From positions 1-52,880 of the forward strand of contig JAITUT010000034.1 in NCBI GenBank assembly GCA_031286325.1: a DNA stretch of 52,880 nucleotides, given 5' to 3'. The translations under genes were made by a program, and so were the position numbers. Every line of letters begins with the position of its first letter. The stretch's first letter is position 1. The stretch is from Helicobacteraceae bacterium (GTDB lineage: Bacteria > Campylobacterota > Campylobacteria > Campylobacterales > SZUA-545). Below, piece by piece: positions 1,045 to 45,925 of this stretch. The notes beneath the pieces were generated by a model. It had not been told where the DNA came from and searched no databases. It saw only the letters and a list, made by a program, of their open reading frames with translations.

Positions 1045-3827
1045 TAAGCCTTAGAAACCTTGACCGCGCATTTCTTGAAGTCGGTTTCTTCCGAGATCGG
1101 GCAGGTCGCGTCAAGGCAAACTTTGTTGATAAAGACCTTCTCGTCGAACCACGGAACATAGATTAGTCCCTCCGGCACGCGGTTTCTGCCGCGCAGATCC
1201 ACTTTGACATTCACATTGCCGCGTCGGCTTTCAATTTTAACGGTGTCGTTTTGTTGAACGCCGAGTTTTTTCGCGTCATTTTCGTGCATATAGCAGAGCG
1301 CGGAAGGAACGGCGTTCGCTAGCTCGGGTACTTGCATAGTCATCGTGCCGCTATGCCAATGCTCCAACACGCGACCCGTGCAGAGCCAGAGCGGATATTC
1401 TCCGTCAGGCATCTCGGGCGGATCCATATAGGGGCGGAGGAAAATTTTGGCTTTATTTGCCAACTCGACTTTTGTGTCTGGGGTCGGTTTGCTCAAGTTG
1501 CCGCTTGGAATCTCTTTAAAGAGTTTGCCGTAGAAGGCGAACTTCTCGCCGCGAGCCGCAACTTTTCTGGCATACGGATCGTAAGCGACATTGAAACGCC
1601 ATTGAGTCTCTTTGCCGTTGACGACGGGCCAGCGCAAGCCGCGAACGCGGTGGTAGGTGTCGAAATCGGCGAGATCGTGTCCGTCTCCCAAAGTAAATTG
1701 GCGATATTCCTCAAAGATAGACTTCTGAATAAAGAAGCCGTAGCCAGTCCACTCTTTGCCGTCAGAACCCATAATTTTGCGTTTGTCGCCGACTGCTTCG
1801 GTATTCAAAACGTCCTTCATTACGGGGTCTTTTACGGAGTATTTTTTCTTAGCTTCGGGGTATGCGAAAAGGACGTCAAAGAGGGTGTCCGTCTCTTTAT
1901 AGCCCATTTTTTTAGCGGCTTCGATCACATCGGGGAGCTCTTTGCCGTTCCACATTTTTTTGCCCCAGCACTCTTTGATCGTGAAGCGTTTCGCGAACTC
2001 AAGCATATGCCAAGTATCGCTCATAGCCTCGCCGACCGGAGTAACGGATTGTTTCCAGTGTTGCGTGCGGCGCTCGGCGTTGCCGTATGAGCCCCATTTC
2101 TCGTAGATCATCGCGCAAGGCAGAATGAGGTCGGCGACTTTGGCGCTGATACCCGGATACGAATCGGCGCAAACAATGAAGTTGTCCATCTCGCGAGCCG
2201 CTTTGAGCCAGTGGTTCGCGTTCGCGCTGTTGTGCCACGGGTTATTCACTTGAATCCAAGCGAATTTGACTTTACCGTCCTCAATGGCGCGCATAATTTT
2301 CATATACGCCAAGCCCGGAGTAGGCGCGATCGTCCCTGCGGGAACTTTCCAGAGCGTCTCTGTTTTTTCGCGGTGTTTCGGGTTCGGGATAAGCATATCG
2401 CTGGGGAGGCGGTGGCAGAATGTGCCGACTTCGCGCGCGGTGCCGCACGCGGAGGGTTGCCCTGTGAGCGAGAACGCGCCGTTGCCCGGAGCCGCTTGTT
2501 TGCCGAGCAGCAAATGCACCATATAGGCGCACTCATTTACCCAAGTGCCGCGCGTGTGCTGGTTCATACCCATTGTCCAGAAGCTCACGACTTTGCGCTT
2601 CTTATCTATATAATAGGAAGCGAGGTCTTTGAGTTTCTTTTTGAAAGACTCTATGTTCTCATTAGGATCGCCCTTTGCGAGAGCGGCGGTGTATTCCAAA
2701 GTGTAAGGCTCTAAACCCTTTTTGAAGTCCTCAAACGAGATCGCCCAATGCGCGGCGTTTCTAGAGCCGTCATTCTTCATCTCGTCTCCCTCTTTCACGC
2801 CTAAATAGCCGAGAGTGATTCCCTCGTCTTTGCTGACGATCTTAGAGACTTCTTTCATCGTGGTTTCGCGCTCTTTGGCGGAGTAGTTCGGCGAACCGTC
2901 CGGGCGCAAGCCGTAACCAATGTTGTGGAAACCTGTAGCGAAGATCGTATGCTTCTTAATGAAGTCTTGATCCATCGCGCTTGGGTTGTTATACACGATC
3001 TCGCGGGCGATATAGTTCCAGATCGCCACATCGGTGTGCGGTTTGAAGACTATGTCAAAGTCAGCGATGTCGCTGGTACGGTTCGTGTAGGTAGAGAGAT
3101 TGACGAGTTTGACTTTATCCGGGCTATTGCGCTTGCGTTCCGAAACGCGCGCCCACAAAACGGGGTGCATCTCAGCCATATTCGCGCCCCACGACACGAT
3201 CGTATCCGTTAGCTCAATATCGTCATAGCAACCGGAGGGTTCATCAACGCCGAAAGTTTGATAGAAGCCCACGACGGCGCTTGCCATACAGTGGCGAGCG
3301 TTCGGGTCAAGGTTGTTGGAGCGGAAACCCGCTTTCATCAGTTTAGTCGCTACATAACCCTCTTGGATCGTATATTGCCCCGAACCGAAGATCGCTACGG
3401 AGCCAGGACCGTTTTGGTTGTAGGTTTCTTTGAACTTCTCAGCCATTACATCAAAAGCTTTCTGCCAGCTAACGGGACCGAATTTGCCGCTTTTGCTGAA
3501 TTTGCCGCTGGAGTCCATACGCAAAAGAGGCTGCGTAAGGCGATCTGCGCCATACATAATTTTTGCGAGGAAGTAGCCTTTAATGCAGTTGATACCGCGA
3601 TTCACGGGCGCGAGCGGATCGCCTTTCACGGCGACGATCTTATCGTCTTTCGTGGCAATCATGACGCCGCAACCTGTTCCGCAAAACCTGCAAACGGACT
3701 TATCCCACTTCCAACCCGCTTCCGCTTTGTTGGCTGCCGCAAGCGCCTCTTTGGGGGTGCTTATGCCTGCCGCGACCGCCGCCGAAGCCGCCGCCGCGCT
3801 CTTTAAGAAATCCCGCCTTGTTTGCAT
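1044..3827 (-). CDS. napA: NapA, periplasmic nitrate reductase catalytic subunit
   Basis: A 927-residue molybdopterin oxidoreductase, the long form usual in Campylobacterota. It begins with a Tat signal ([17 protein letters not shown]). A [4Fe-4S] motif follows at Cys46, Cys49, Cys53 and Cys81 (CRFCGTGCG...NCIKG), and the likely molybdenum ligand is Cys180 in [12 protein letters not shown]. The C-terminal part carries the molybdopterin dinucleotide-binding domain ([16 protein letters not shown]). It reduces nitrate to nitrite in the periplasm. The start is supported by an AAGGAG ribosome-binding site about 8 bases upstream. It is the first visible gene of the minus-strand operon, so its promoter lies in 3828-4334. 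Confidence 0.97.
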
Positions 3828-3892
3828 TGGCGTTCTCCTTATAATTTTTTGAAGGTCGTTTTTTGTCCAAGATTAAACCAGCGTTTAACGTC

Positions 3893-3924
3893 CGCGCAAA
3901 TTAAATGTACATTTAATTTGCGCG
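3893..3924. promoter_or_regulatory. Perfect 32-bp palindrome upstream of napA
   Basis: The left half CGCGCAAATTAAATGT is followed directly by its exact reverse complement, with the centre between 3908 and 3909. It lies 66 to 97 bases upstream of the napA ATG. The AT-rich core TTAAATGTACATTTAA suggests a dimeric regulator site; the CRP/FNR superfamily members that control nap genes in this phylum bind related TTAA-type half sites. Because it has no loop, an operator is more likely than a terminator. Which protein binds is not visible. Confidence 0.6.
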
Positions 3925-4060
3925 CGACAGATATCAAAATCAGCCCTTACACGCGCGACGTTAAAAGGCTGATTTGATTTTGACTAAAACAACTCGCGAA
4001 CCTCGGCAAAATACGCCGACCTCCTAGCGACAATTTTGGCTTTTTTTGAGGGTCTTTTAC

Positions 4061-4074
4061 TTGACAAAAGTCAA
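4061..4074. promoter_or_regulatory. FNR/CRP-like palindrome TTGAC-AAAA-GTCAA
   Basis: A perfect 5+4+5 inverted repeat, one base per half site away from the classical FNR consensus TTGAT-N4-ATCAA. It lies about 235 bases upstream of napA and 260 bases upstream of coaE. Anaerobic or nitrosative-stress regulators of this family commonly act on nap promoters. The distance from napA is long for a simple activator site, so the assignment is tentative. Confidence 0.4.
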
Positions 4075-4323
4075 ACAAACCGCGCCGTTGCGTTATTCTT
4101 TTGATAATAACGACCTTCGCTTTAAAGCAAAATTTTATAATCGCCGATTCACGCGGGGTAAAACGACCCGCGATCTCGCTTGCGAACAGGCTGTGTTTTA
4201 GAGTTACAAATACCAAACAAAAGGCTATTTTTCCCGCGATCGCGCGGAGCTTAACGGTAAATTTATTGGGTTTCTAAAAGGGTCGGAGCTTTTGGTCGGA
4301 GCTGAAGATTTGCTTTTACAAGA

Positions 4324-4329
4324 TATAAT
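4324..4329 (+). promoter_or_regulatory. -10 box of coaE, probably leaderless transcript
   Basis: TATAAT ends five bases before the coaE ATG. A start site the usual 6-8 bases downstream would fall on or next to the ATG. There is no ribosome-binding site between the box and the start codon. Confidence 0.45.
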
Positions 4330-4334
4330 TTTAT

Positions 4335-4910
4335 ATGCGACAAATTTCTCACGGCATAGTAGTTACGGGCGGTATCGGCAGCGGCAAGAGCGAGGCGGCG
4401 AATTATCTGCGCTCGCGCGGTTTCGCGCTTGTGGATAGCGATCAAATTTCGCGCGAGGTATTCGCCGCCAAGACAGGCGAGATCGTTTCGTTTTTTGGTA
4501 CCACCGATCGCAAAAAGATCGGCGCGCGCATCTTTGCGGACGATTGGGATCGCGCCAAATTGGAGGCGCTTTTGCACCCAGAAATCCGCGCCAAAGTCTG
4601 GGCGCAATGTCTGGATTTGGATCGCGCGGGCAAGCCGTTTTTCGTAGACATTCCGCTCTACTTTGAAAATCGCGCCGACTATGGGTTTTTGCCTCGCGCG
4701 ATCCTTATTTACGCGCCGCTCGAGACTCGCATCGCGCGCCTCGTGCATTACCGCAAAATGAGCGAGGAGGAGGTCTTTGAGCGCATAGACGCGCAGATTC
4801 CGCTGGAAGAAAAACGCTCTCTCGCGACTTGGATCATAGAAAACGACAGCACCAAAGACGCCCTCCGCGCGGAATTAAATACTTTTATTTCCACGATCGC
4901 GAAGCCTTGA
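4335..4910 (+). CDS. coaE: Dephospho-CoA kinase
   Basis: A 191-residue P-loop kinase that phosphorylates the 3'-hydroxyl of dephospho-CoA, the last step of coenzyme A synthesis. The Walker A motif GGIGSGKS sits at residues 12-19. It is followed by the family's ALVDSDQISREV acid-rich stretch and, near the middle, DIPLYFEN, which corresponds to the lid region. Length fits the family (about 190-205). It reads away from the nap operon and stands alone, followed by a gap and the convergent nadC. Confidence 0.93.
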   Translation: MRQISHGIVVTGGIGSGKSEAANYLRSRGFALVDSDQISREVFAAKTGEIVSFFGTTDRKKIGARIFADDWDRAKLEALLHPEIRAKVWAQCLDLDRAGKPFFVDIPLYFENRADYGFLPRAILIYAPLETRIARLVHYRKMSEEEVFERIDAQIPLEEKRSLATWIIENDSTKDALRAELNTFISTIAKP

Positions 4911-6139: not shown

Positions 6140-7711
6140 ATGCGATCGCTGAAAATTTCGCTAATTTACGTTGTTTTTTGCGTCTTTTTCTGCGCGTTTT
6201 CGCTAGGTTGCGGCGAGACGAGCGAGAAGCCGACAGACGCCGCCGCGCCGTTTTCTACGGACATAGAAGCGTTTGACCTCGCCGATTACGCTGGATTTCG
6301 CGCAAGCGCGGGCGATCCGCTCTCCGCCTACCAGTGGCATCTCAAAAATTTCGGGCAACTTGCGGGTAAAAGCGGCGTGCACGCGGCTAAAATAGGCGCG
6401 GACTTAAATGTAACGCCGCTCTTTGAGCGCGGCGTTTTCGGCGCCGGATCGCGCGTGGCGATCGTAGATACCGGCGTGGAGATAACGCACCCCGATCTGG
6501 CGGCGAACATTGATCTCGCCGCGAGCGTTTCGTATATCGGCGGCGGCGCGGAACCGCGCGAAAAATCCGCCCTATGCGCTCACGGCACGGGCGCGGCGGG
6601 GCTGGCCGCGGCGGCAATCAATAACGGCGGCGTAGTCGGCGTGGCTCCTAAGGCGAAGATCGCGGCGATCAACATAGGTCTAGGTTGCGGCGGCAACGCC
6701 TACGATTCGACGCTTTTGTCGGCGTTTATGGGCGATCTTGAAATTTACTCCAATTCGTGGGGTTATGACGATTTTTTCACGCGCGATCGCTTCGGCGAAG
6801 CACTTGCCGAGGGAGTTCGCAACGGAAGAAACGGGCGCGGATCGCTTTACTTTTTCGCGGCGGGCAACTCGCGATCAGCGCGTCATAGAGCCGATTACAA
6901 CGAACATTTAAGCAATTTTGAAGTAATGCCGATCGCGGCTTTGGAGTCCAATGGCGCGTACGCGCCATACTCCGCGGCGGGCGCGAACATTCTCGTCAGC
7001 GCGTTCGGCGGCGCGAACAGCCTTGACAAGGCTCTTGTGGTTACGACCGCTCTTACGGGTTGCGAGGCGAGCAAATTCGGAGCTTTTTCGCACGAACTTA
7101 ACGCGGGTTGCGCCTACGGCTTTATGAACGGCACGAGCGCGGCGACTCCGCAGGCTGCGGGGGCGGCGGCTCTGATTTTAGAGGCGCGGCGCGATCTTTC
7201 GTGGCGCGAGGCGCGATACATTTTGGCGGCGAGCGCGCGGCAAAACGACCCGCGCGAGGCGGATTGGACGAGAAACGGCGCGGGTTTTTGGATAAATCAC
7301 AACTACGGATTCGGCGCGATTGACGCCTTTAGCGCGGTTCAAATGGCTAAAAATTTTCGCAAATTCGGCGCGTTAAAAAGTTACGAGCGAAACGATATAA
7401 TCTCCGCTGATTTTCTAGCGCAGAATGATATAAACAAAATTGAATTTGTGAATGTTTCAGCGGATATTAACAATGCTAGAAACTGCTCATTTAATCTCGC
7501 GCTTTTTTCGCCCGCGGGGACGATCGCGGAGTTTGTTAAAAACGATATTATAATTACGAGCGATTTTACGTTGCGAGATTTTGTCTTTGGGACGCCGAGA
7601 TTTTTAGACGAAAACGCTAATGGAATTTGGCAACTTGCGATTAGCGACTCAAGTTGCAATAATTTGAGTTTAGAGAGCTGGAGTATTTCTATTAAAGGGA
7701 GATCGGAGTGA
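6140..7711 (+). CDS. Subtilisin-like serine protease (S8) lipoprotein with C-terminal P domain
   Basis: A 523-residue exported protease. The N-terminus is a hydrophobic signal ending in the lipobox SLGC (Cys24), so it is probably lipid-anchored. The S8 catalytic triad is intact: Asp110 (VAIVDTGVEITHPDL), His148 (CAHGTGAAGLA) and Ser333 (NGTSAATPQAAGAAAL), with oxyanion Asn243 (FFAAGNS). The last 120 or so residues (SFNLALFSPAGT...GIWQLAISD...LESWSISI) look like a P/Homo B beta domain of proprotein convertases. A short region precedes the catalytic domain but no obvious I9 propeptide; that role may be played by the next gene, which overlaps its stop by GTGA. Substrates are unknown. Confidence 0.9.
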   Translation: MRSLKISLIYVVFCVFFCAFSLGCGETSEKPTDAAAPFSTDIEAFDLADYAGFRASAGDPLSAYQWHLKNFGQLAGKSGVHAAKIGADLNVTPLFERGVFGAGSRVAIVDTGVEITHPDLAANIDLAASVSYIGGGAEPREKSALCAHGTGAAGLAAAAINNGGVVGVAPKAKIAAINIGLGCGGNAYDSTLLSAFMGDLEIYSNSWGYDDFFTRDRFGEALAEGVRNGRNGRGSLYFFAAGNSRSARHRADYNEHLSNFEVMPIAALESNGAYAPYSAAGANILVSAFGGANSLDKALVVTTALTGCEASKFGAFSHELNAGCAYGFMNGTSAATPQAAGAAALILEARRDLSWREARYILAASARQNDPREADWTRNGAGFWINHNYGFGAIDAFSAVQMAKNFRKFGALKSYERNDIISADFLAQNDINKIEFVNVSADINNARNCSFNLALFSPAGTIAEFVKNDIIITSDFTLRDFVFGTPRFLDENANGIWQLAISDSSCNNLSLESWSISIKGRSE

Positions 7712-8127
7712 AAAGCTTTTTGATTTTTGGCTTATTTTGTTTTTCTTTGATCGCCGCCGATATTGTAATTAAAGATGAAAAGGGGCGATTAGAGAGTTAT
7801 ACGATCGTGCCCAAAGGTATGCAAAAAAAATCGCTTGAAATTGAAAGCGGCAAAGAAAACCGCTATTATTTATACGGAGACCCCAATATGGAAGCAATCT
7901 CAAACGGTTTTATTATTATCGCTTTCAAAACTCCCGTAAACATAGATGAGTTTTCGGCGAAGTATAATTTGCTTAAAGCGGGAGCGATAAGCGAAAAAAA
8001 GCTGTTATATTTATTTGAAAATAAAAGCGCTTTTAACGATCTATCTTTATGCGCTGAAATCACAGCGCAAAATAGCGAGATTCGCTACGCCAGACCCGAC
8101 TTCAAATCAAACGCGAAGATAGAATAA
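7708..8127 (+). CDS. Small secreted protein, possible trans-acting subtilase propeptide or inhibitor
   Basis: A 139-residue protein with a signal peptide (MKSFLIFGLFCFSLIAA) and an otherwise compact alpha/beta pattern. It starts at GTG inside the protease stop (GTGA overlap), with GGGAG upstream, so it is translationally coupled to the protease. Its core reads GFIIIAFKTPVNIDEFSAKYNL and it ends with IRYARPDFKSNAKIE. This resembles the layout of subtilase propeptides, which carry a late A-x-P-[DN] motif just before the catalytic domain. I infer that it folds or inhibits the neighbouring protease in trans. The family is not certain. Confidence 0.55.
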   Translation: MKSFLIFGLFCFSLIAADIVIKDEKGRLESYTIVPKGMQKKSLEIESGKENRYYLYGDPNMEAISNGFIIIAFKTPVNIDEFSAKYNLLKAGAISEKKLLYLFENKSAFNDLSLCAEITAQNSEIRYARPDFKSNAKIE

Positions 8128-8128
8128 T

Positions 8129-9112
8129 ATGAAAAAAGGCGCGGCGTTAATAATTTCAATGGTTTTTATACTTTTAATGCTCAGTTTCGCGGCGGTATTT
8201 TACAACCGCACATCAACGGCATTCGCGAGAGCTTCCGCAAAAGACGCGGCTATCAGCGCGAACACATTATTATTTTCATTCGCGAAATCCGCGCTAGACG
8301 AGTTAATAAGGACGATCAAAACCGAAGCCGTAGCGTTTTGCTCTTTCGTTGAAGATAAAAGCGGCTGCCAAGAGGAAATTTTAATAGAAGCTTTTGATAT
8401 TTTATACAAAATTCCGATATTTTTGGATATAGGCGGCTGGCATATATCAATCGCGTGCGCGCCGCAGGGGTTAAAGGTAGATATAAATTCGCTGAAAATT
8501 GAGCCTAAAAGCGACTTAAGCGATCGCGCAAATCCGATCGTGAGGCGCAGAGAAATTGTGGAAAAATTTTTGCGAAACGAATATAAATTATATTCGTCTT
8601 GGCAGTTTTTTGAGCTTTTAGATTTTGTTTTTGACACAACCTCTCAAGTGAATAGTTATTTGCGCGGCGATACTAGATTGAATATCACAAATCCCACATT
8701 AGAGAGAGGACGTATCTCATCGCCTAGAGTTTTACGTTTGATCGCGCGCGATTATGCGGCGAGAACGCACGATGAAGCGGCGTTAAAAATTGAGTGGGAG
8801 GATATATTTACATTTGAAAATCCGGGCGGCAAAATCGACTTTAATAATATGTCAAAAGAATCGTGCGAAATGCTCTTTTACGATATGCCCGATCTATGCG
8901 CGCGCAATCCGGAAAGACGGGCTAGATACGAGGATTTAACCACGCGCTTTAGAGACGCTAACGAGACAATCGCGGATTTTAATCTATTTTTCGGTTTTAA
9001 CCCGAAACTAAATTGCCGCGTGGCATATAGATCGCAAAACGCCGATTTGAAATACTCGTTTTATTATGATTCTAATTTAGGCGAAGTAAGCGGTTTTGTA
9101 ATAGGAAATTAG
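8129..9112 (+). CDS. GspK-like minor pseudopilin (type II secretion)
   Basis: A 327-residue protein starting two bases after the previous stop. The N-terminus MKKGAALIISMVFILLMLSF has a short basic leader and a hydrophobic helix, like type IV pilin/pseudopilin signals, without an obvious Glu at +5, as in GspK. The large body, with SAM-like helices (SSWQFFELLDFV...ITNPT...GGKIDFNNMSKESCEML), is typical of GspK, which caps the pseudopilus and recruits substrate. No other type II secretion gene is in the window. Its place directly behind an exported protease suggests a role in presenting or releasing that protease, which is inference. Confidence 0.7.
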   Translation: MKKGAALIISMVFILLMLSFAAVFYNRTSTAFARASAKDAAISANTLLFSFAKSALDELIRTIKTEAVAFCSFVEDKSGCQEEILIEAFDILYKIPIFLDIGGWHISIACAPQGLKVDINSLKIEPKSDLSDRANPIVRRREIVEKFLRNEYKLYSSWQFFELLDFVFDTTSQVNSYLRGDTRLNITNPTLERGRISSPRVLRLIARDYAARTHDEAALKIEWEDIFTFENPGGKIDFNNMSKESCEMLFYDMPDLCARNPERRARYEDLTTRFRDANETIADFNLFFGFNPKLNCRVAYRSQNADLKYSFYYDSNLGEVSGFVIGN

Positions 9113-9181
9113 TCATTTTTTGCAAAAAAGCATTCCTTGCGCAACGTCCTAAAGCTAAAATATTGTTTGACAAGGAATTAA

Positions 9182-9850
9182 TTAACACACCAATTGAAAA
9201 TCGGCAAAACTTTCTAACTTATATTTGTGTAACTGTCTTTCCACATTAGCCTTTAATATATCCATATTCATTAGTTGCCTTACCTGCTGTTCCCAACCGC
9301 TTTCTCCATTAAATTGTTGTTTATCAATCTCGTCCCATTGCGATATAATCTTTTTCGCGTTTTTTATTTCTTGCTCTGCTTCCGCTATCCTGCCGCGCCA
9401 AAATAACGCAAGCGCAATATCCTGAAATAAATCTGATGGATAGGGGTGATGGATTGAATCTTGGGAGGTCTTTTTTAAGAACGCAAGAAATTCTTGACAA
9501 CTGAATGTATCCTTTTGAAGCAAAGAAACTTGTTGTTTCAATCGTTCCGCATAACAGCCAAAATTTTCTTTGTGTTGAACAAGCGTTACCCTGTCCCTCG
9601 CCCCCTTATTATTCAATAAATATGTAGCCGCTCCAAACGCAATAACAGGAAGCTCTATCATCAAGTTATAAATGTGAAAAATCGGCTCATAGTTTATATT
9701 TCCGTAGCGTCTTTGCAAATGTATTCCGCACAAAAACGCTCCATTCCTGCGTATTAACCACATTGGTTTATACTCCTTAAACGCAGGAAAGCGAGAGAGC
9801 CAGTCTTTTGTAATTTGCCTTTTGTCTTTCGTTTCTATTTTCTTATTCAT
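9182..9850 (-). CDS. Unknown protein, putative immunity-type gene
   Basis: A 222-residue soluble protein of unknown family. The preferred start MNKKIETKDKRQITKDW has AAAGG seven bases upstream; a longer frame to 10027 would overlap the neighbouring gene. Recognisable stretches are DWLSRFPAFKEYKPMWLIRR, FLCGIHLQ and YEPIFHIYNL, a pattern I associate with small immunity-like proteins of polymorphic toxin loci, without a family name. The C-terminal half is helical (LALFWRGRIAEAEQEIKNAK). Base composition is AT-rich and GATC-free, unlike the flanks. It is the last of three co-directional genes, each preceded by a related leader sequence. No toxin partner is present. Confidence 0.6.
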   Translation of the reverse strand: MNKKIETKDKRQITKDWLSRFPAFKEYKPMWLIRRNGAFLCGIHLQRRYGNINYEPIFHIYNLMIELPVIAFGAATYLLNNKGARDRVTLVQHKENFGCYAERLKQQVSLLQKDTFSCQEFLAFLKKTSQDSIHHPYPSDLFQDIALALFWRGRIAEAEQEIKNAKKIISQWDEIDKQQFNGESGWEQQVRQLMNMDILKANVERQLHKYKLESFADFQLVC

Positions 9851-9880
9851 TTTCTGCCTTTCTTTTTCTTTGTTTTTCAT
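9851..9880 (-). repeat. Degenerate copy of the leader repeat
   Basis: On the minus strand this 30-base stretch shares ACAAAGAAAAAGAAAGG with the two exact copies at 10292-10328 and 11164-11200, then diverges. It places AAAGG directly before the ATG at 9850, so it serves as that gene's ribosome-binding region. Confidence 0.55.
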
Positions 9881-9993
9881 TGCGATTTTATTCTTTACTC
9901 GTTCAATAATTTCCAAAACATAACCGTCTGACTTAACTTTTACATTATTTTGCTCTACCCGCTCATTTGCGTAGGGAGCTAAATAAAAAGTAG

Positions 9994-10266
9994 CTAATTG
10001 TAATAAAAAGCGTAAATCACAAACCAAACAATTCCCCCCAAAATAACAAACGAAGAAAGAATACCAAACAGAATACGAGCCGTTTTGCGCCCAAACATAT
10101 TTACCCAGCCGTCAATTTTTTTCAAATTGTAGGCTATTCCGCTAACATCGCCAAATATCCAACTCCAATCAAAGATAGAGGCTAACAATCCGCCCACTCC
10201 GATAATTACAAACAATAATCCGAAATAATGCGGATTTGCTGCCAAAAATTCTTTTATCTGTTCCAT
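9994..10266 (-). CDS. Small two-span membrane protein, Imm17-like
   Basis: A 90-residue protein with two hydrophobic segments (YFGLLFVIIGVGGLLASIF and ILFGILSSFVILGGIVWFV) separated by a conserved-looking loop, YNLKKIDGWVNMFGRKTARI. The size, two spans and the GW-N-FGRK-AR loop resemble the Imm17 family of immunity proteins linked to polymorphic toxins, often in Bacteroidota. That match is from memory. It would protect the inner membrane or bind a toxin there. It sits in the GATC-free AT-rich island between two other putative immunity genes, with an exact leader repeat about 26 bases upstream. Confidence 0.55.
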   Translation of the reverse strand: MEQIKEFLAANPHYFGLLFVIIGVGGLLASIFDWSWIFGDVSGIAYNLKKIDGWVNMFGRKTARILFGILSSFVILGGIVWFVIYAFYYN

Positions 10267-10291
10267 TGATTTTTCTTAACCATATTGGTTG

Positions 10292-10328
10292 TTTTCAACC
10301 TTTCTTTTTCTTTGTGGGTTTATTTTAT
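10292..10328 (-). repeat. 37-bp leader repeat, copy 1
   Basis: Identical over 37 bases to 11164-11200 (minus strand core ACAAAGAAAAAGAAAGG). It lies upstream of the 90-residue membrane protein gene. Its purine-rich core contains AAAGG, a possible ribosome-binding site. Confidence 0.85.
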
Positions 10329-10349
10329 TGCTTGGCGAAGGCATTTTCG

Positions 10350-11108
10350 TTAGTCTATCGTTTCGCCTGTAAATTGTTTTAATTCTTTCCAAAACTCCTC
10401 CAAGATTTTTTTCGCCGCGGGTTCTTCAATTTCTCCCCAAGTGCTCCAATTTCTATCAAAACGGTATAATCTATCCCAGCTAACAAACTCGCCTGTCAGT
10501 TTTAAGTCTTTGCAAATTATACCCTCTGTAAATTTTCTCACTTTCGTTTCAAATGTTGTAAGCGGTATGTTATATTCTTTTTTGCAAAGAAAATAACCGT
10601 CTAAAAATGCGCGAAGATACGAAATGTTGTAATAGTCAAAATACATAGGAAAGCGCGCCATTATTCCTATCAGCCATTCTTCGAGCGTACAAGGTCTCTC
10701 TGGAACTGTAAAATAATCAGGTTTTTTCTGCTCTGAAGTCAATTCCGCCGAAGTTTCTCTTAAAATATAGGAAATGGATTCCTGAACGGGAAACTTCTGT
10801 TCATACTCTTTCAAAAAGTCAAAATATTTGTCAAAGAAATCCCGTTCGTCCTCACAAGTGAACGAAATAATGCTTTTGAAATTTCGCGTTCCGATATTGT
10901 CCGCATTGTATTTTTTGCGAGCGTATTCCTCTAATGAGGGAATGGCGTCATATTTTGCTTTAAGCTGTTCTTCGTTTTCAAGTTGCAACAAGACGCCTTC
11001 ATAGCCGAGCAGAAAAGCATTTAACAGCGCGACATTTCGCTGTATGATAAATTCTTTCGGAGAGTTCTCTATTCGCAGTAATATGTCCCAATTTATAAAA
11101 CTTCTCAT
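10350..11108 (-). CDS. Unknown protein, putative immunity-type gene
   Basis: A 252-residue soluble protein of unknown family starting MRSFINWDILLRIE; a longer frame to 11204 would begin inside the leader repeat. The chosen ATG overlaps the stop of a possible 19-residue leader peptide (11105-11164, ATGA overlap) with GAGAGG upstream. The protein is rich in aromatic and acidic residues (CTLEEWLIGIMARFPMYF, EEFWKELKQFTGE) with no enzyme motif, a common look for immunity proteins. GATC-free and AT-rich like its two neighbours. Foreign origin is likely; the function is not established. Confidence 0.6.
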   Translation of the reverse strand: MRSFINWDILLRIENSPKEFIIQRNVALLNAFLLGYEGVLLQLENEEQLKAKYDAIPSLEEYARKKYNADNIGTRNFKSIISFTCEDERDFFDKYFDFLKEYEQKFPVQESISYILRETSAELTSEQKKPDYFTVPERPCTLEEWLIGIMARFPMYFDYYNISYLRAFLDGYFLCKKEYNIPLTTFETKVRKFTEGIICKDLKLTGEFVSWDRLYRFDRNWSTWGEIEEPAAKKILEEFWKELKQFTGETID

Positions 11109-11163
11109 CTCTCTAATTTTCCTCTCTTCGGTTGCGGTTGTCGCGCCGCCGCCTCTGTGTTCA

Positions 11164-11200
11164 TTTTCAACCTTTCTTTTTCTTTGTGGGTTTATTTTAT
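11164..11200 (-). repeat. 37-bp leader repeat, copy 2
   Basis: Exact match to 10292-10328. On the minus strand it runs AAAGAAAAAGAAAGG and then TTGAAA directly before an ATG at 11164 that opens a 19-codon frame. That frame ends at the ATGA overlap with the 252-residue gene. Confidence 0.85.
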
Positions 11201-11322
11201 CCATTTTTTATTTTTAAATTTCTATTTCCCTGTTAGGATAGATTTGACTTGGCGACAAACTAAGACTAATAAACAGCGCGATCTATTATAAATACTTTGT
11301 AAATCCGATCTTAATTAACCCA

Positions 11323-11345
11323 ATAGAACTTCGTTCTATGTTTTT
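11323..11345 (+). terminator. Hairpin with T-run (plus strand)
   Basis: ATAGAAC-TTC-GTTCTAT followed by GTTTTTA. It has the shape of a rho-independent terminator for plus-strand transcription, although no plus-strand gene precedes it in this gap between dam and the immunity genes. It may block antisense transcription into dam. Confidence 0.4.
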
Positions 11346-11395
11346 ATTGTCATAATCTAAAATTGAATCATTTGCTCCTCCAATTCCGTCTTTTA

Positions 11396-12301
11396 TCATA
11401 ATACAACTGCCTGATTTGTAATTAATAATTCTGTTAAAAAACCTCTTTTTTCCGGATTTGAATTAATACTTCTTTTCGCGCCAACTCTTTTAATTGTGAA
11501 GTCTGAAAACAGATCATCAAAAAAGTTATCCTCTTTATTTTTACCTTTCACGTCAGAATTGCTTAAAATCCAACTATGCCCCAACTTATCCAATTTGCCG
11601 CAAAATTTTTTGAGTCTAATTTGCTCCTCATCATCAAATTCGTCCTTTGCGTAAGAATTGAAACTTGACGTTTCGCTTAACGGTTTATATGGCGGGTCGA
11701 AATAAAATAAGGTATTTGAGCTTACATAATTAAGCGTTTGCTCAAAATCTCCGCACAGTAATTCCACTTTTTGCAAGGCTTCGCTTACTGCCAAAATGTT
11801 TGATTTATCGCAAATAGTCGGTTTTTTGTAACTCCCCATTGGAACATTAAATTCATTTTTGCGATTTACTCTATACAGTCCGTTAAAACAAGTTCGATTC
11901 AAAAAAATAAATAACGCGGAATGTGTTGCTTGCTCTTGTTGTCTTTTATTAAAAAGTTCTCTTTTTTGGTAATAATATTCTTTTTTTTCTTCTGCGGAAT
12001 CGTCCAATAAATGATATTCATTTTGTAATACATCTAAAATCGAAACAAGTTCTTTCGGCGTTGATTGTATTGTTTTGTAGGTATTTATCAAATCCTCATT
12101 TATGTCGTTCGCCACGACTTTTTTCAATTGTGAAAATTCGTTCAGTACCCAAAAAAGAACCGCGCCGCTACCAACAAAAGGCTCAACATAGGTCTCAATA
12201 GCCGAGTTTGGCAGGTTTTTCTCAATCTCTGAAATCAATTGAGTTTTGCCTCCCGCCCATTTTAGGAATGGTTTTGCGCGATCAAAAGCGAAACTTTTCA
12301 T
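11396..12301 (-). CDS. dam: Dam-type DNA adenine methyltransferase (D12 class)
   Basis: A 301-residue N6-adenine methylase of the Dam/DpnM family. FLKWAGGKTQL is the SAM-binding motif I, YVEPFVGSGAVLFW follows, and FYFDPPYKPL is the DPPY catalytic motif IV. Family members methylate GATC. The start at 12301 overlaps the ridA stop by ATGA; a frame starting at 12316 (MRGFD) would overlap further. The gene is AT-rich and nearly GATC-free, while the chromosome around it is GATC-saturated, which suggests it arrived with the island to its left. It appears to use ridA for transcription and translational coupling. No restriction partner lies next to it. Confidence 0.88.
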   Translation of the reverse strand: MKSFAFDRAKPFLKWAGGKTQLISEIEKNLPNSAIETYVEPFVGSGAVLFWVLNEFSQLKKVVANDINEDLINTYKTIQSTPKELVSILDVLQNEYHLLDDSAEEKKEYYYQKRELFNKRQQEQATHSALFIFLNRTCFNGLYRVNRKNEFNVPMGSYKKPTICDKSNILAVSEALQKVELLCGDFEQTLNYVSSNTLFYFDPPYKPLSETSSFNSYAKDEFDDEEQIRLKKFCGKLDKLGHSWILSNSDVKGKNKEDNFFDDLFSDFTIKRVGAKRSINSNPEKRGFLTELLITNQAVVL

Positions 12302-12669
12302 ATCAAAGCCACGCACTCCATTTCAATCAGCGCGTTTCTCGGCAACTCTTTGACTGCGACCGTGCTGCGCGCGGGCTTGTGATCGCCCAAAAATTCAGCG
12401 TAAAGCGCGTTAACCGCCTCGAAATCGGCGATATTGACGAGAAACAAAGTCGTTTTGACGATCTTGCCCACGCCGCTGCCGCTCGCGTCCAAAACCGCCG
12501 CGATATTCGCGAAAACCTGCCGCGCTTGATCTTCTACGCCGCCCGCGGCAAACTCGCCCGCAGGCGTCAAAGCGATCTGCCCGCTTGTGAAAACAAATCC
12601 GTTCGCGACTAACGCCTGCGAATAAGCGCCGATCGCTTGCGGTGCGTTGTGTGTGGAAATTTTGCGCAT
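12298..12669 (-). CDS. ridA: RidA family enamine/imine deaminase
   Basis: A 123-residue YjgF/YER057c/UK114 protein. It has the standard start IGAYSQALVANGFVFTSGQIAL, the core VFANIAAVLDASGSG, and the C-terminal ARSTVAVKELPRNALIEMECVAL carrying the conserved Arg that binds the carboxylate of enamine intermediates. RidA hydrolyses reactive 2-aminoacrylate produced by PLP enzymes. Composition is GATC-rich, so it belongs to the host chromosome. The downstream dam gene overlaps its stop. An AGGAGG-like ribosome-binding site precedes the start. Confidence 0.93.
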   Translation of the reverse strand: MRKISTHNAPQAIGAYSQALVANGFVFTSGQIALTPAGEFAAGGVEDQARQVFANIAAVLDASGSGVGKIVKTTLFLVNIADFEAVNALYAEFLGDHKPARSTVAVKELPRNALIEMECVALI

Positions 12670-15410: not shown

Positions 15411-16081
15411 GTCAAGCCGCCGCCGTTACGCTGAGCAACATCGCTTTCGCGTGGCGGGGCTCTGATCCTGTACTAAAAATCGCGAATTTCACGGCGGCGC
15501 AAGGCGAGAGACTATTTATTTCGGGCAAAAGCGGCAGCGGCAAAAGCACGCTTTTAGGTTTGATCGCGGGCGTGCTTACGCCAAATGAAGGCGAGGCGAT
15601 CGTCTGCGGCGCAAACCTCAATTCGCTCTCCGCCGCGAAGCGCGATCTGTTCCGCGCGGCGAAGATCGGCTACATCTTCCAGCAATTCAACCTCATAGGC
15701 TACCTTTCAATTTTAGAAAATGTGCTGTTGCCGCGCGGCTTTTCGCTAGATCGCAGAGGCGCGATCGGCGAAGCGGAGGAGCTTTTATCAAGGCTTGGAC
15801 TCGCCGAAAATCTATGGCGCAAAAAAGCCGCGAATTTCTCGGTCGGTCAACAGCAGCGAGTCGCGGCGGCGCGGGCTTTAATTGGCTCGCCGCCGATCTT
15901 GATCGCAGACGAGCCCACAAGCGCCCTTGACTACGACATCAAAGAGGACTTTTTACGCCTTTTATTTGACGAGTGCGATCGCGCGGCTTCGACTTTGCTT
16001 TTTGTGAGCCACGATCGCGAGTTGGCGCGGCGGTTTTCACGCGAGGTGAAACTCGCGGAAATTAACGAGGCTTCGCGATGA
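15407..16081 (+). CDS. ABC transporter ATP-binding protein of the ZrgA zinc system
   Basis: A 224-residue ATPase of the LolD/MacB type. Walker A GKSGSGKST, Q-loop YIFQQFNLIG, signature NFSVGQQQRVAAARAL, Walker B PPILIADEPTSALD and the switch histidine in LFVSHDREL are all present. The start is TTG overlapping the previous stop (TTGA). It powers the FtsX-like permease encoded next. By context it serves zinc uptake together with the DUF2796 protein. Confidence 0.92.
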   Translation: MSQAAAVTLSNIAFAWRGSDPVLKIANFTAAQGERLFISGKSGSGKSTLLGLIAGVLTPNEGEAIVCGANLNSLSAAKRDLFRAAKIGYIFQQFNLIGYLSILENVLLPRGFSLDRRGAIGEAEELLSRLGLAENLWRKKAANFSVGQQQRVAAARALIGSPPILIADEPTSALDYDIKEDFLRLLFDECDRAASTLLFVSHDRELARRFSREVKLAEINEASR

Positions 16082-17352
16082 AAGCGATATTTCTCGCGAA
16101 ACTCGCCGCCAAAAGCGCGTGGAGCAGGCGCGGGACGCTCTTTCTGATCGTATTCGCGATCGCGATCTCCGCCGCCCTTTTGCTCGGCGTCGCGCGAGCG
16201 CGCGCGCAACTCCGCGACGGATTTTCGGGGGCGATTTCGGGAACTGATTTAGTCGTGGGGGCGCAGGGCGGCGACATTCAGTTGGTCTTATACGCGATTT
16301 TTCACATCGGCTCCGCCACGCGAAATATGGGCTGGGAATCGGCGCAAGAGATCGCCAAAACGAGCGGCGTTGCTTGGACGATCCCAATTTCGCTCGGCGA
16401 CTCGCACGCGGGCTATCCTGTGGTGGCGACAGACGCGAACTTTTACGCGCATTACAAATTTCACGGCGATCACGATGTGAAATTCGCCGAGGGGCGCGCG
16501 CCAAACGCGCTCTTTGAAGTCGCGATCGGTAGCGAAGCGGCGAAGCGGCTGGGCTACGCGATCGGCGATCTTGCGGTGTTAAATCACGGCGCGGGTTTGG
16601 CGCAAGCGGCGAAACTTACGGCGCACGACGATATGCCGTTTGCGGTCGTGGGGGTGATCGCGCCGACCGCCACGGCGATCGACAGATCGCTCTTTATCAG
16701 CCTCGAATCTATGGAGGCGATTCATATAAATTGGCGTTTTGGCGCGCCGATGCCGGGTTTCAAAGTGGGCGCGGAGCAAGTTAAAGCAATGAAGCTAACA
16801 CCAAAAAGCATTACCGCGCTGCTTGTCGGCTTGGATCGGCGATCGCAAGTTTTTCATATACAGCGTGAAATCGCCGAAATGGACGAGCCATTGACGGCGG
16901 TAATGCCCGGCGTGGCGTTGGATCAGATTTGGGAAATACTCGCGAATGTGGAGGCGGCGCTTACGACGATTTCGGCGTTTGGCGCGGCGTCCGCGCTTGC
17001 GGGCTTGATCGCGGCGATTTTGGCGGGGCTTAATGAGCGGCGGCGCGAGATCGCGATCTTGCGATCGGCGGGGGCGAGCGCGTTTGATATTTTTACGCTT
17101 CTCGCGTTTGAGGGGATTTTGCTGGTTTTGGGCGGGATTTTTTGCGCCCTCGCGATCGTGTATGCCGCGATCTTGACTTTAGCGCCGTTTTTAGCGGATA
17201 ATTACGGCGTGTTTTTGACTCTCGCGCCGCCGAACGCGGAGGAATTTTTACTTTTGATCTTGATCGCTGGAAGCGGCGTGATCGCTAGTATTTTGCCCGC
17301 GATTCGCGCGTATCGCGCGAGTCTCTCGGACGGATTAAGGATAACGATATGA
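16078..17352 (+). CDS. ABC transporter permease, FtsX/MacB type, of the ZrgA zinc system
   Basis: A 424-residue permease with the four-span layout of the FtsX/LolC/MacB family: one N-terminal span (GTLFLIVFAIAISAALLLGVA), a large periplasmic domain, then three C-terminal spans (ASALAGLIAAILAGL; GILLVLGGIFCALAIVYAAILTL; EFLLLILIAGSGVIASILPAI). The periplasmic domain begins TDLVVGAQGGDIQLVLYAIFHIG, characteristic of the permeases paired with DUF2796/DUF3299. ATGA overlap with the ATPase gene. It is very GATC-rich: about 24 sites in 1275 bases by hand count. Confidence 0.9.
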   Translation: MKAIFLAKLAAKSAWSRRGTLFLIVFAIAISAALLLGVARARAQLRDGFSGAISGTDLVVGAQGGDIQLVLYAIFHIGSATRNMGWESAQEIAKTSGVAWTIPISLGDSHAGYPVVATDANFYAHYKFHGDHDVKFAEGRAPNALFEVAIGSEAAKRLGYAIGDLAVLNHGAGLAQAAKLTAHDDMPFAVVGVIAPTATAIDRSLFISLESMEAIHINWRFGAPMPGFKVGAEQVKAMKLTPKSITALLVGLDRRSQVFHIQREIAEMDEPLTAVMPGVALDQIWEILANVEAALTTISAFGAASALAGLIAAILAGLNERRREIAILRSAGASAFDIFTLLAFEGILLVLGGIFCALAIVYAAILTLAPFLADNYGVFLTLAPPNAEEFLLLILIAGSGVIASILPAIRAYRASLSDGLRITI

Positions 17353-32303: not shown

Positions 32304-32329
32304 AGGGCTGTTAAGAGCCAAAAAGCCCT
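32304..32329 (-). terminator. Terminator at the ccoI / methylase convergence
   Basis: AGGGCT...AGCCCT inverted repeat with a 14-base loop; on the minus strand it is followed by TTTT. It overlaps the last codons of the methylase gene and begins two bases after ccoI ends. Confidence 0.4.
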
Positions 32330-33183
32330 CTTAGCGACGCTTCCGCCAGCTCGCTTCGTTTCTTTTTGTCGTGGTGATGATAGACGCCGCGATCTTTGCG
32401 TTCTTTGAATGTCTCGCGCACGGTGTGTTTAGCGATCTCATCTTTAAAAACCGCCGTTTCGGATTGATAATTCGCCAGCCTTTCCTCCGCCATTTTGATA
32501 TATGTATCCGAAATCTCTACGCCTATGTAGTTGTGCCCCAGCAATTTAGCGGCGAGCAAAGTAGTGCCGCTGCCGCTATACGGGTCTATCACTACGCAGT
32601 CTTTATTATCGTCCAAAATTGAGTAAATAGCCCGCAAGGGCAGTTGCAGAGGAAACGGCGCCGGATGAGCGCTCTTTTGCTCCGGGGCGAAACGCCAAAT
32701 AGAGGTCATAAGGGCGTGTTTGGAGATTAGCTCTTCGCCGATTAAATTGCCGTTTTTGGGCTTATGCAGCCAATAGATACGCTCCTCAACTTGCCAAAAA
32801 CGCCAGCCGCGCAAATTCGCCGCGATCGCGCGATCCCAGACAATTTCTTGCTTGATCTCCCATTTCGTCTTCAAAAGCCATTCCATAGGGTGGATCATCT
32901 TGCCGCGTTCCCAGCGGGTCTTGTGGTTGTAAAAGAAACTGCCGCCCTCTTTGGTAACGCGCCAAAGCTCGTTTAAGACCTCTATCTGCTCCGCTTGGTA
33001 GGCGCTTTCGTCTCTTTTGTCCGCGGCGTTGTCGTATTCCACATTTTTTACCAGCCAGCCCTTTTGCTTTTCGCCTTTGTTGTATGGCGGGGAAGTTACG
33101 CCGATATCTACGAAATTATCGGGAATTTCGCGTAACTTTATCTTTGTGTCGCCGCGCAAAATAGTGTTTAGAATTTCGCTCAT
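32311..33183 (-). CDS. DNA methyltransferase of a type II restriction-modification system
   Basis: A 290-residue beta-class DNA methylase: the catalytic TSPPY (VDIGVTSPPYNKGEKQ) comes first and the SAM-binding DPYSGSGTTLLAAKLLGHNYIG comes last. TSPPY occurs in both N4-cytosine and some N6-adenine enzymes, so the modified base is open. The WDRAIAANLRGWRFWQVEERIYWLHKP middle is typical of methylases paired with endonucleases. A charged tail (RETFKERKDRGVYHHHDKKK) follows the core. It overlaps the upstream endonuclease gene by ATGA. Confidence 0.9.
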   Translation of the reverse strand: MSEILNTILRGDTKIKLREIPDNFVDIGVTSPPYNKGEKQKGWLVKNVEYDNAADKRDESAYQAEQIEVLNELWRVTKEGGSFFYNHKTRWERGKMIHPMEWLLKTKWEIKQEIVWDRAIAANLRGWRFWQVEERIYWLHKPKNGNLIGEELISKHALMTSIWRFAPEQKSAHPAPFPLQLPLRAIYSILDDNKDCVVIDPYSGSGTTLLAAKLLGHNYIGVEISDTYIKMAEERLANYQSETAVFKDEIAKHTVRETFKERKDRGVYHHHDKKKRSELAEASLRGLFGS

Positions 33184-33851
33184 TTCGCCGCCTCCGTTAG
33201 AATTTTGAAAAAATCCTTGTTAATAAATTCTTTGTAATTTAACAACTCCTCTTTGCTCGCCAAATAATGAATTTTTGTATTCGGATCGTAGGTAAAATTT
33301 TTGTAATCAAAAGACGCGCTGCGCAAATAGTCTCTGCTCTTTCTAACTCTATTTGGAAATTTATTCTCCAAAAGTTTTCGTAGCCTTTCGACAAAAGATT
33401 TTGTTCTGAACTCAAACTCAAAAATGTAAATAAGCTTGCCGCTCACAAAGCCGCTCACCAGCATATTAGGATTATTTTCATAATCTTTGTCAAAGCGATC
33501 CCAAGTGTAATCAGTAAAGTTGCCAGCCGCGTTTAATTTGCCTTTTGCGGGCTCTTTGCCGCTTATATTTTTAGGTTTTACCTCGCAAAACTCATATTTG
33601 GTTTTACCGCCGATCGTGGTTTGCCTATATCCGTTATAGCCTAGTTTGCTTTCGTGGCGTCTATAACCGCAGATCGCAACCCTAATATACTCCCTCAAAG
33701 TAGAGGAGTTTTTATCGTTTATGTATGTAGTTAATAGATCGTTAAATATCGCGATCAAATTGTCTTTTGATTTATCCCGCAAAAAGCCGTTTAACTCTTT
33801 GCGCGATCCCGTAGCGCAGATTTTGATCGCCTCTTGAAAGTCTTTATTCAC
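33180..33851 (-). CDS. Putative type II restriction endonuclease
   Basis: A 223-residue protein encoded directly before the methylase (ATGA overlap), the common order for a restriction pair. The segment KTKYEFCEVKPKN supplies an E-x-K end of a PD-(D/E)xK active site; an acidic partner could be Glu59 or Asp48 upstream. It is otherwise novel to me, with a basic, aromatic C-terminal half (KNKFPNRVRKSRDYLRSASF), suitable for DNA binding. The endonuclease call rests on size, the ExK motif and the neighbour. GATC content is normal, so the pair is not a recent arrival. Confidence 0.65.
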   Translation of the reverse strand: MNKDFQEAIKICATGSRKELNGFLRDKSKDNLIAIFNDLLTTYINDKNSSTLREYIRVAICGYRRHESKLGYNGYRQTTIGGKTKYEFCEVKPKNISGKEPAKGKLNAAGNFTDYTWDRFDKDYENNPNMLVSGFVSGKLIYIFEFEFRTKSFVERLRKLLENKFPNRVRKSRDYLRSASFDYKNFTYDPNTKIHYLASKEELLNYKEFINKDFFKILTEAAK

Positions 33852-38732: not shown

Positions 38733-39641
38733 ATGGAAAAACATTATCAAACATACAACGTCGACTGCCGCGATGGGATAAAAGAGATCGCGGGCGACTC
38801 TATTGACTTTATCGTAACAGACCCGCCGTATTTCATAGACGGTATGGGTAGCGATTGGGACGACAAAAAATTAAAAAAGAAAGCCTCAAAATCGGGGGTT
38901 GTCGGCGGTTTGCCTGTGGGAATGAAGTTTGACAGGGCGCAGGGAGAAGATTTGCAGAAATTTTTAGAGCCGTTATGCGCGGAGTTTTACCGCGTATTAA
39001 AGCCGGGCGCTTTTTGCGTGGTTTTTTCGCAGGGGCGGCTCTATCATCGCGCCGCTATGGCGCTGGATATGGCGGGTTTTGAAATTCGCGATATGTTGGG
39101 GTGGAAATACGAGGGGCAACCAAAAGCTTTTTCGCAAGATCATTTTATTAGAAAAGACAAAAATCTATCCGAAAGCGAAAAAGAGAAGCTTATCGCGGAA
39201 TTAGACGGGCTAAAAACCCCGCAGCTAAAACCTCAAATAGAGCCTATGGCGTTAGCGCAAAAGCCTAAAGAGGGGACTTTTGTGGAGAATTGGAAAAAAT
39301 ATCAAGTTGGGCTTATGAATACGAAAGTATCGCTGGACGGAATGTTTCCGGGAACTATTATGGACGTTTCCAAAAAAGTTCGCCGCGACGAGAGCGATAT
39401 AAAAATAGATCATATGACGATCAAGCCAGTTTGCCTTATATCTCATCTAATCAAATTATTCACAAAAGAGGGGCAGGTTGTTTTTGACCCCTTTTTGGGC
39501 AGCGGCTCGCACGGCGTAGCCGCGATCGCCGCAAACCGAAAATTTATAGGTTTTGAGATTGAGAGAAAATATTTTGATATAGCGAACAAGCGACTGGATA
39601 AAGCGGACTCTTCGGCGGATTTATTCGCTACCGTTCGCTAA
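38733..39641 (+). CDS. Orphan DNA adenine methyltransferase (beta class)
   Basis: A 302-residue N6-adenine-type methylase: IDFIVTDPPYFIDGMGSDWDD has the DPPY catalytic motif, VVFDPFLGSGSHGVAAIAANRKFIGFEIE the SAM-binding motif, in the beta order. The middle part (GTIMDVSKKVRRDESDIKIDHMTIKPVCLISHLIKLF) is typical of stand-alone or phage-borne methylases. No restriction gene flanks it. The upstream 90 bases hold AAAGGGGG and a TATATTAT box. Third DNA methylase in the window. Confidence 0.88.
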   Translation: MEKHYQTYNVDCRDGIKEIAGDSIDFIVTDPPYFIDGMGSDWDDKKLKKKASKSGVVGGLPVGMKFDRAQGEDLQKFLEPLCAEFYRVLKPGAFCVVFSQGRLYHRAAMALDMAGFEIRDMLGWKYEGQPKAFSQDHFIRKDKNLSESEKEKLIAELDGLKTPQLKPQIEPMALAQKPKEGTFVENWKKYQVGLMNTKVSLDGMFPGTIMDVSKKVRRDESDIKIDHMTIKPVCLISHLIKLFTKEGQVVFDPFLGSGSHGVAAIAANRKFIGFEIERKYFDIANKRLDKADSSADLFATVR

Positions 39642-45299: not shown

Positions 45300-45572
45300 T
45301 TAATCGCATTTTTTTATATTTAATCGCTCTAGCACCCGCTCAAAGAACGCGCCGCCCTCGCGATCGTAGTCGTCATCAAACTCCATATAGATCGCGCATT
45401 TGTGGCGTTCGCGCAGATCGCAGTTCTCCATTACCTTTGGCGCGATCTCGCTCTCGGCTTTAACCGCCTCGATCGCCTCCAAAATTTGAGCTTTCGCCGC
45501 TTCGTCCTCGCCATAGACCAGTTGAAGCCCCTCGTAACGCTCCTCGCGCCTGTGATACGCCTTTATCGCCAT
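45300..45572 (-). CDS. Hypothetical small acidic protein
   Basis: A 90-residue soluble protein rich in Glu and Asp with two cysteines (VMENCDLRERHKCAIYMEF). AAAGG lies before the ATG. No family recognised. It reads in the same direction as the next gene, 65 bases away. Confidence 0.55.
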   Translation of the reverse strand: MAIKAYHRREERYEGLQLVYGEDEAAKAQILEAIEAVKAESEIAPKVMENCDLRERHKCAIYMEFDDDYDREGGAFFERVLERLNIKKCD

Positions 45573-45693
45573 TCAAAAACCTTTTTTTGGTTTTAAAACG
45601 GGTGATTTTAGCCTGAAAACGCTGGAAAATCAAGGGAAAATCGGCTCGTGAGCGATATTTTCGCGTTTCGTCATAATTTCTAACTTCCCATTT

Positions 45694-45873
45694 TCAAATA
45701 GATTTAATTTCGCCAATCGTTTTTACCCGCTTTTCGCGCCGCTTGCCCTCGTGTTCGGCGTCAAGCCAAGCGGAAATTATTTTTTCGCCTTGTCCCAAAA
45801 TCCATAAATTTTTATCCAAACGCCAAAACATTGAAATTGTTGTGTAGGCGGGAGATTTTTGCGTATTCGACAC
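45694..45873 (-). CDS. Possible 59-residue protein after the chemotaxis receptor gene
   Basis: GTG-started frame MSNTQKSPAYTTISMFWRLD, continuing NLWILGQGEKIISAWLDAEH and ending in a basic tail (REKRVKTIGEIKSI). Composition looks protein-like and it fills the gap behind the receptor gene, but there is no clear ribosome-binding site; an ATG at 45831 is an alternative start. A longer frame overlaps the receptor's end. Confidence 0.35.
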   Translation of the reverse strand: MSNTQKSPAYTTISMFWRLDKNLWILGQGEKIISAWLDAEHEGKRREKRVKTIGEIKSI

Positions 45874-45925
45874 TGTGGCGAAACGCCGCCCCGCTTTTCT
45901 AAATTTTGTAAACCTTTTTAAGAAA

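Follow-up and report, generated by a model that had tools for sequence, protein, structure and literature searches.

Islands of probably captured orphan immunity-type genes under a shared leader in a genome of the Campylobacterota

Acquired defence against the toxins of rival bacteria is known mainly from the Bacteroidales and from loci of the type VI secretion system (T6SS). A recombinase-associated acquired interbacterial defence (rAID) array is defined by a tyrosine recombinase upstream of at least two co-directional genes with less than 41% guanine plus cytosine (GC) and with conserved intergenic motifs (PMC12247911), and for the immunity arrays of Vibrio, homology-facilitated illegitimate recombination has been discussed as a possible route of capture (PMC5361080). 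In the open-access literature nothing on orphan immunity in Campylobacterota was found, subscription journals being mostly outside this search. Here an array of three small genes is described from a Helicobacteraceae bacterium of that phylum, on the contig JAITUT010000034.1 (assembly GCA_031286325.1), of which positions 1 to 52,880 were analysed and are referred to as the window. Each of the three genes stands behind a copy of a leader of about 60 nucleotides (nt), and the stretch is probably one of about 20 islands, which jointly hold more than 40 captured orphan immunity-type genes; that the cassettes form a collection of immunity genes is very likely.

The three genes of the window encode proteins of 90-252 amino acids (aa), have 37-38% GC and are all on the minus strand. 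The first open reading frame, ORF1 (10350..11108), measures 252 aa if the start that is likely its own is used and 284 aa if begun inside the leader, and belongs to no known family. The second gene (9994..10266, 90 aa) encodes an Imm17 immunity protein (PF15562, 34.5 bits against a cut-off of 25), and the third, ORF3 (9182..9850, 222 aa, or 232 aa if begun at 9880, inside the leader), encodes a probable orphan immunity protein. Leader copies 1 (11149..11200, before ORF1) and 2 (10278..10328, before the Imm17 gene) share an unchanged sequence of 37 nt, for which the chance expectation is nil, and a degenerate copy 3 (9842..9896, before ORF3) is 70% identical to the reference copy (E-value 5.5e-9), all three on the minus strand like the genes. 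The consensus of the leader is approximately ATAAAATAAAAYCRCAATGAAAAMCGAAGAAAAAGAAAGKTTGAAAATRAACACAGRGGC. A linker often comes next and has CCGAACRGGG at its end, a ribosome-binding-type sequence just before the own start of the gene. In many cassettes the leader runs in frame into the gene (MKNEEKERLKMNTEA...), and in others it is out of frame; since the changes from copy to copy often alter the peptide, the leader is taken as a conserved nucleic acid and not as a peptide. The leader as a known RNA was rejected for lack of an Rfam match. A hairpin in its linker was rejected too, since it is visible in single sequences and gives no consensus fold across 14 copies.

A short core, used as the first query, recovered the three copies of the window and no others. 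Two further loci, reached through ORF3 and ORF1, bear the same leader. When seven copies were combined into a sequence profile, 42 were recovered from this genome and 44 from the stretches fetched afterwards. The same profile, with a deeper filter, found no leader in six congeners and eight further members of the family, and the rest of a draw of 60 genomes gave one marginal match (E-value 0.005). Among 397 genomes drawn from the whole phylum, the leader was found in this genome only and in none of the 396 other Campylobacterota; the filter was stricter here and let through only 13 of the 42 copies found before. Viral contigs and plasmids gave nothing above chance-level matches.

The leaders are grouped in about 20 or more islands with more than 40 immunity-type genes, a count that is approximate because several islands end at contig ends and some of these ends overlap. 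The genome is a draft of 96 contigs, 98% complete and with 0.04% contamination, and the islands are embedded in contigs with host genes, which argues against misbinning. The pooled islands have 33% GC as compared with 49% in their flanks, and downstream of most of the 44 leader copies lies an intact open frame in the same orientation. Among the cassettes scanned, the Pfam immunity families Imm9, Imm12, Imm17, Imm22, Imm26 (one match over the cut-off and one under it), Imm44, PoNi_N and SUKH were found, as well as DUF7710, DUF7716, DUF2695, ankyrin, HEAT, TPR and pentapeptide families. The initial annotation had proposed a single GATC-free island of captured immunity genes from another lineage, with three co-directional genes, one of them resembling Imm17, and no toxin; the gene array, its orientation and the Imm17 assignment held, and toxin families are absent from the window flanks, while the idea of a single island gave way to about 20 islands with some 44 common leaders.

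The relatives of ORF3 support the claim of foreign capture. The closest is 58% identical, in Phocaeicola massiliensis, with others at 40% in P. plebeius and P. coprocola and at 46% in Acetivibrio straminisolvens. The Phocaeicola relatives lie in, or end, long co-oriented series of small low-GC genes; these series hold Imm9, Imm22, SUKH and ankyrin genes, conjugation genes adjoin them, and an Imm17 gene lies slightly further away. Seven of the cassette families have relatives (33-58% identity) in two of the Phocaeicola immunity series, and a gut shared with Bacteroidales is suggested solely by this link. In Acetivibrio (L045), an Rhs-type protein at 3116-4717 consists of an Rhs core and a variable C-terminus, which matched no family, and the ORF3 relative, apparently frameshifted, starts at 4729, a few bases past the Rhs stop. 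Judged from gene order, this position is that of a cognate immunity gene, and the occurrence of homologues behind toxin C-termini in other genomes, which the initial annotation had suggested looking for, was thereby found for ORF3. ORF3 is therefore read as a probable orphan immunity protein, and it also has a damaged second copy, 65% identical, at G000:C37:29241-29930. Profile searches of the three proteins matched Imm17 for the second gene, as had been expected, and gave no convincing family for ORF1 and ORF3 in Pfam, NCBIfam or PADLOC; none of the three matched a housekeeping family, and across the genus they are not kept at this locus. A search for relatives of ORF1 gave weak matches only, its reading as a tandem duplicate had no support from BLASTP of its halves, and the structure models of ORF1 and ORF3 were too poor for a fold reading (predicted local distance difference test scores, pLDDT, of 38.9 and 48.5).

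The position of the islands suggests how the cassettes may be expressed. By eye, about 18 of the 21 islands in which the upstream gene is visible have a co-oriented host gene there, often at most 100 bases away, and sucC, fliF, fusA, mreB and infB are among these genes. In several congeners sucC is followed by sucD, whereas here the sucC stop overlaps the leader start; similarly, fliF is followed by fliG in congeners, and here an array begins two bases past the fliF stop, both comparisons being limited to the congeners in which the neighbouring gene is visible. The native stops of sucC and fliF are kept ahead of the cassettes, and fliG does not follow the array on the fliF contig, which points to rearrangement as well as insertion. 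The island of the window is also at a break in gene order as compared with congeners, and no clean empty site was found for it there, the congener order being different at this place.

Here it is proposed that the cassettes were captured from foreign bacteria, in part at least out of the gene pool that also supplies the immunity arrays of Bacteroidales, and that a cassette consists of an immunity gene joined to the common 5' leader of about 60 nt. Transcription would come by read-through from the host gene in front, with the leader helping translation, and the product would neutralise, inside the cell, a toxin delivered by a neighbour, so that the cassettes would protect against the toxins of rivals. 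As most islands lie directly behind a co-oriented host stop codon, expression by read-through is rather likely. Capture may proceed by a recombination in which leader homology provides the anchor and the joint at the gene end is illegitimate, which fits the constant leader and the variable joint with the gene; this anchoring by the leader is held tentatively, somewhat short of an even chance. More tentative still is the whole scheme of a dispersed cassette-capture system, in which the leader sets captured antidotes in succession behind host operons throughout the chromosome and supplies them with a ribosome-binding site and borrowed transcription.

Several observations weigh against this proposal. 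About half of the cassettes have no family match, and three others fall into families unrelated to immunity (pyrimidine-dimer glycosylase, FGE-sulfatase-like domain, metallo-beta-lactamase fold). The ORF3 copy on contig C37 is decayed and cassette and leader remnants exist, so that selection does not act on all cassettes. No Rhs or other toxin genes were seen beside the islands, including the window flanks of ORF3 and the surroundings of its C37 copy, toxin families in the rest of the genome being outside the search. The co-orientation of about 18 of 21 islands with the host gene upstream is not far from the general co-orientation of bacterial genes, and the Phocaeicola series, although they hold relatives of the cassettes, do not contain the leader.

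The alternative that survives best makes the leader the target of a site-specific cassette system so far unrecognised, similar to integrons or rAID, whose recombinase would act in trans on dispersed sites. There is one leader per cassette, the 5' leader is constant and the gene variable, the islands occupy many places, and additional inter-cassette elements carry inverted repeats, all of which would suit such a system. However, the six matches to PF00589 in the genome include none on a leader-bearing contig, and congeners without the leader have about as many. Furthermore, a fixed crossover does not fit the boundary between the leader and the gene-specific sequence, which varies between copies by tens of bases, and neither an attC-type order of core boxes (by eye), nor an Rfam match, nor a consensus fold of the linker was found. 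A site-specific system is thus considered unlikely.

Less probable is a second alternative, which sees in the leader a repeat, selfish or structural, that spread alone, and in the immunity-like genes neutral foreign DNA that lies beside it by chance and is in decay. The several decayed cassettes and leader remnants agree with it, and the lack of the leader in relatives would allow a recent spread; however, an intact frame follows most of the 44 copies on the same strand, and the genes are strongly skewed to immunity families, which a freely moving repeat would not select. The repeat spreading by itself is accordingly judged improbable, and the collection of captured immunity genes is kept as the preferred reading.

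The GATC composition of the window had first drawn attention to the array. GATC sites are found at 9030 and then at 11280, so that 9034-11279 holds none, exactly as had been noted, and the recount of the comparison gene at 16078-17352, for which about 24 sites had been given, yields exactly 24. This is the longest GATC gap of the window, followed by gaps of 1412 and 1006 base pairs (bp), the former (45471-46883) lying partly inside and partly next to a chemoreceptor-like gene (45926-47797). The expectation for 9034-11279 is 7.3 sites from base composition and 5.2 from dinucleotides, a first-order Markov simulation of the stretch lacked GATC in 0.4% of the runs, and all 947 host windows of equal size have at least one site. 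With the protein and codon usage of the three genes fixed, the expectation is only 2.7 +/- 1.4, which makes the single gap unusual and not extreme; the scarcity becomes clear once the islands are pooled. In the pool (23 segments, 29.8 kb) GATC was observed 19 times against 87 expected from dinucleotides, and the coding part has 16 sites against 47.5 +/- 5.7 in 500 synonymous shuffles, of which the minimum was 29. The Phocaeicola immunity series have 12 sites against 62 expected, and the mobile-element backbone adjoining them 27 against 35. In the host, 1651 sites against 637 expected correspond to a 2.6-fold enrichment. With both the islands and the Phocaeicola series poor in GATC and the host enriched, the scarcity belongs to the cassette pool, and it is best read as a trait inherited with that mobile pool and made visible by the enrichment of the host. 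The initial annotation is corrected on this point, since the lack of GATC does not set this single stretch apart from the rest of the pool.

It is very improbable that the absence of GATC is functional, for instance in keeping the adjoining Dam-family methylase or a restriction enzyme specific for GATC from acting on the island. Such a methylase gene does adjoin the island of the window, and both GATC and CTAG are rare in all islands and in the Phocaeicola series; however, the enriched host tolerates GATC everywhere, other islands are equally poor in it with no such methylase alongside, and CATG and GGCC are scarce too, in the islands and in the host. The neighbouring methylase is not needed to explain the scarcity. 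CATG occurs 10 times in this genome against 336 expected, and GGCC 12 times in the host sequence against 564. Finally, the lack of relatives of ORF1 and the codon-corrected expectation of just 2.7 sites would be compatible with an isolated chance gathering of hypothetical genes, a view refuted by the identical 37-nt leader before two genes, where none is expected, and by the recurrence of this leader in about 20 further islands.

The remaining features of the array are on the minus strand. An inverted-repeat element, AATTCCTTG...CAAGGAAT, lies at its 3' end (9132..9179), and an inter-cassette element, GTTTATTAGTCTTAGTTTGTCGCCAAG...TCCTAACAGGG (11228..11274), is akin by eye to elements in L078, L079, L083, L085 and L090. 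The 3' end of a fourth, Imm44-type cassette remains at 11284..11373, 93% identical over 90 nt to L088 238-327, the fuller copy in L088 being assigned to Imm44; the reading of 11284-11395 as a remnant of a restriction enzyme was ruled out by this identity. Directly upstream of the array is the gene for a solitary Dam-family D12 adenine methyltransferase (11396..12301, minus strand, PF02086, TIGR00571), which is probably not part of it, and whose start overlaps the stop of the host gene ridA (12298..12669, minus strand, RidA/L-PSP family, PF01042). The congener copies of the methyltransferase gene are at other places, and several Dam-family methylases occur within the genus. On the other side of the array, a host gene on the plus strand (8129..9112) is kept in congeners with 47-49% identity. 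A row of subtilase, small protein and 327-aa protein is conserved between window 6140-9112 and L095-L098, the subtilase and small protein being a tandem duplicate in three congeners and single here.

Other genes for DNA modification and recombination were also observed. The window has an N6/N4 DNA methylase (PF01555) and, next to it, a 223-aa protein that matches no family and is perhaps its restriction partner (together 32311-33851), as well as a second such methylase at 38733-39641. In L080 390-2065 (G000:C37:7889-9564), IceA (PF05315) adjoins a D12 methylase and immunity cassettes come directly after; IceA is akin to NlaIII, which cuts CATG, the sequence that is so rare in this genome. A truncated tyrosine-integrase N-terminus (L038 9934-10308, G000:C37:29933-30307) lies on the opposite strand beside a tRNA-like sequence and an immunity array, and in a congener (L005 / L040, G001:C36:140-812) an immunity-type pair without leader, consisting of a weak Imm17 match below the cut-off and a 117-aa protein, is also beside a tRNA-like sequence. 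At G000:C30:24161-25851 (L092 2162-3852), a serine resolvase gene (PF00239) lies between the two inverted copies of a sequence of about 495 bp, which share 91% identity, an arrangement that could be an invertible DNA switch.

The islands thus represent a large dispersed collection of orphan immunity-type genes under one leader, in a Campylobacterota genome without a detected T6SS sheath gene. VipB/TssC was not found in the genus, with a control that responded in Escherichia coli alone, so that divergent systems of the Bacteroidales type might be missed. Because this single genome offers dozens of junctions and its congeners offer none, the capture mechanism is testable.

In chromosomal integrons, small cassettes are numerous and a non-coding element recurs among them. 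The islands are like them in both respects, and differ in having no linked integron integrase, in the order and position of their elements (GTT...AAC by eye, and not the attC order) and in the dispersal of the cassettes. The T6SS immunity islet of Salmonella Typhi is likewise chromosomal, carries putative immunity genes and occurs in a host that is not one of the Bacteroidales; it is a single islet, and the parts of the report consulted mention no genome-wide leader (PMC7400221). Orphan immunity genes are also retained or captured in the T6SS clusters of Vibrio cholerae, where, unlike here, they are at the 3' end of the clusters and come from displaced effector-immunity pairs (PMC5361080); in the present genome, in contrast, the genes are dispersed with a leader and VipB/TssC was not found. 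The rAID arrays of Bacteroidales are similar in their short, co-oriented, low-GC orphan immunity genes and in the Imm and SUKH families (PMC12247911), and relatives of the present cassettes are found in the Phocaeicola series, which resemble rAID and are candidates for it. The genes of the window agree with the rAID definition in size (taken as short genes of about 100-300 codons), direction and GC below 41%. A further trait of rAID genes is that they protect from T6SS effectors. The differences are the Campylobacterota host, the roughly 20 small dispersed islands in place of one long array, the lack of a linked tyrosine recombinase, and a repeat that is set as a 5' leader behind host genes; a conserved motif is present in the islands, but it is unlike that of the candidate rAID series in Phocaeicola. 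With no linked recombinase and a different motif, the islands are not filed as rAID; by analogy, they are described as similar in action to an acquired interbacterial defence array, and they suggest that immunity genes cross phylum borders inside a shared community.

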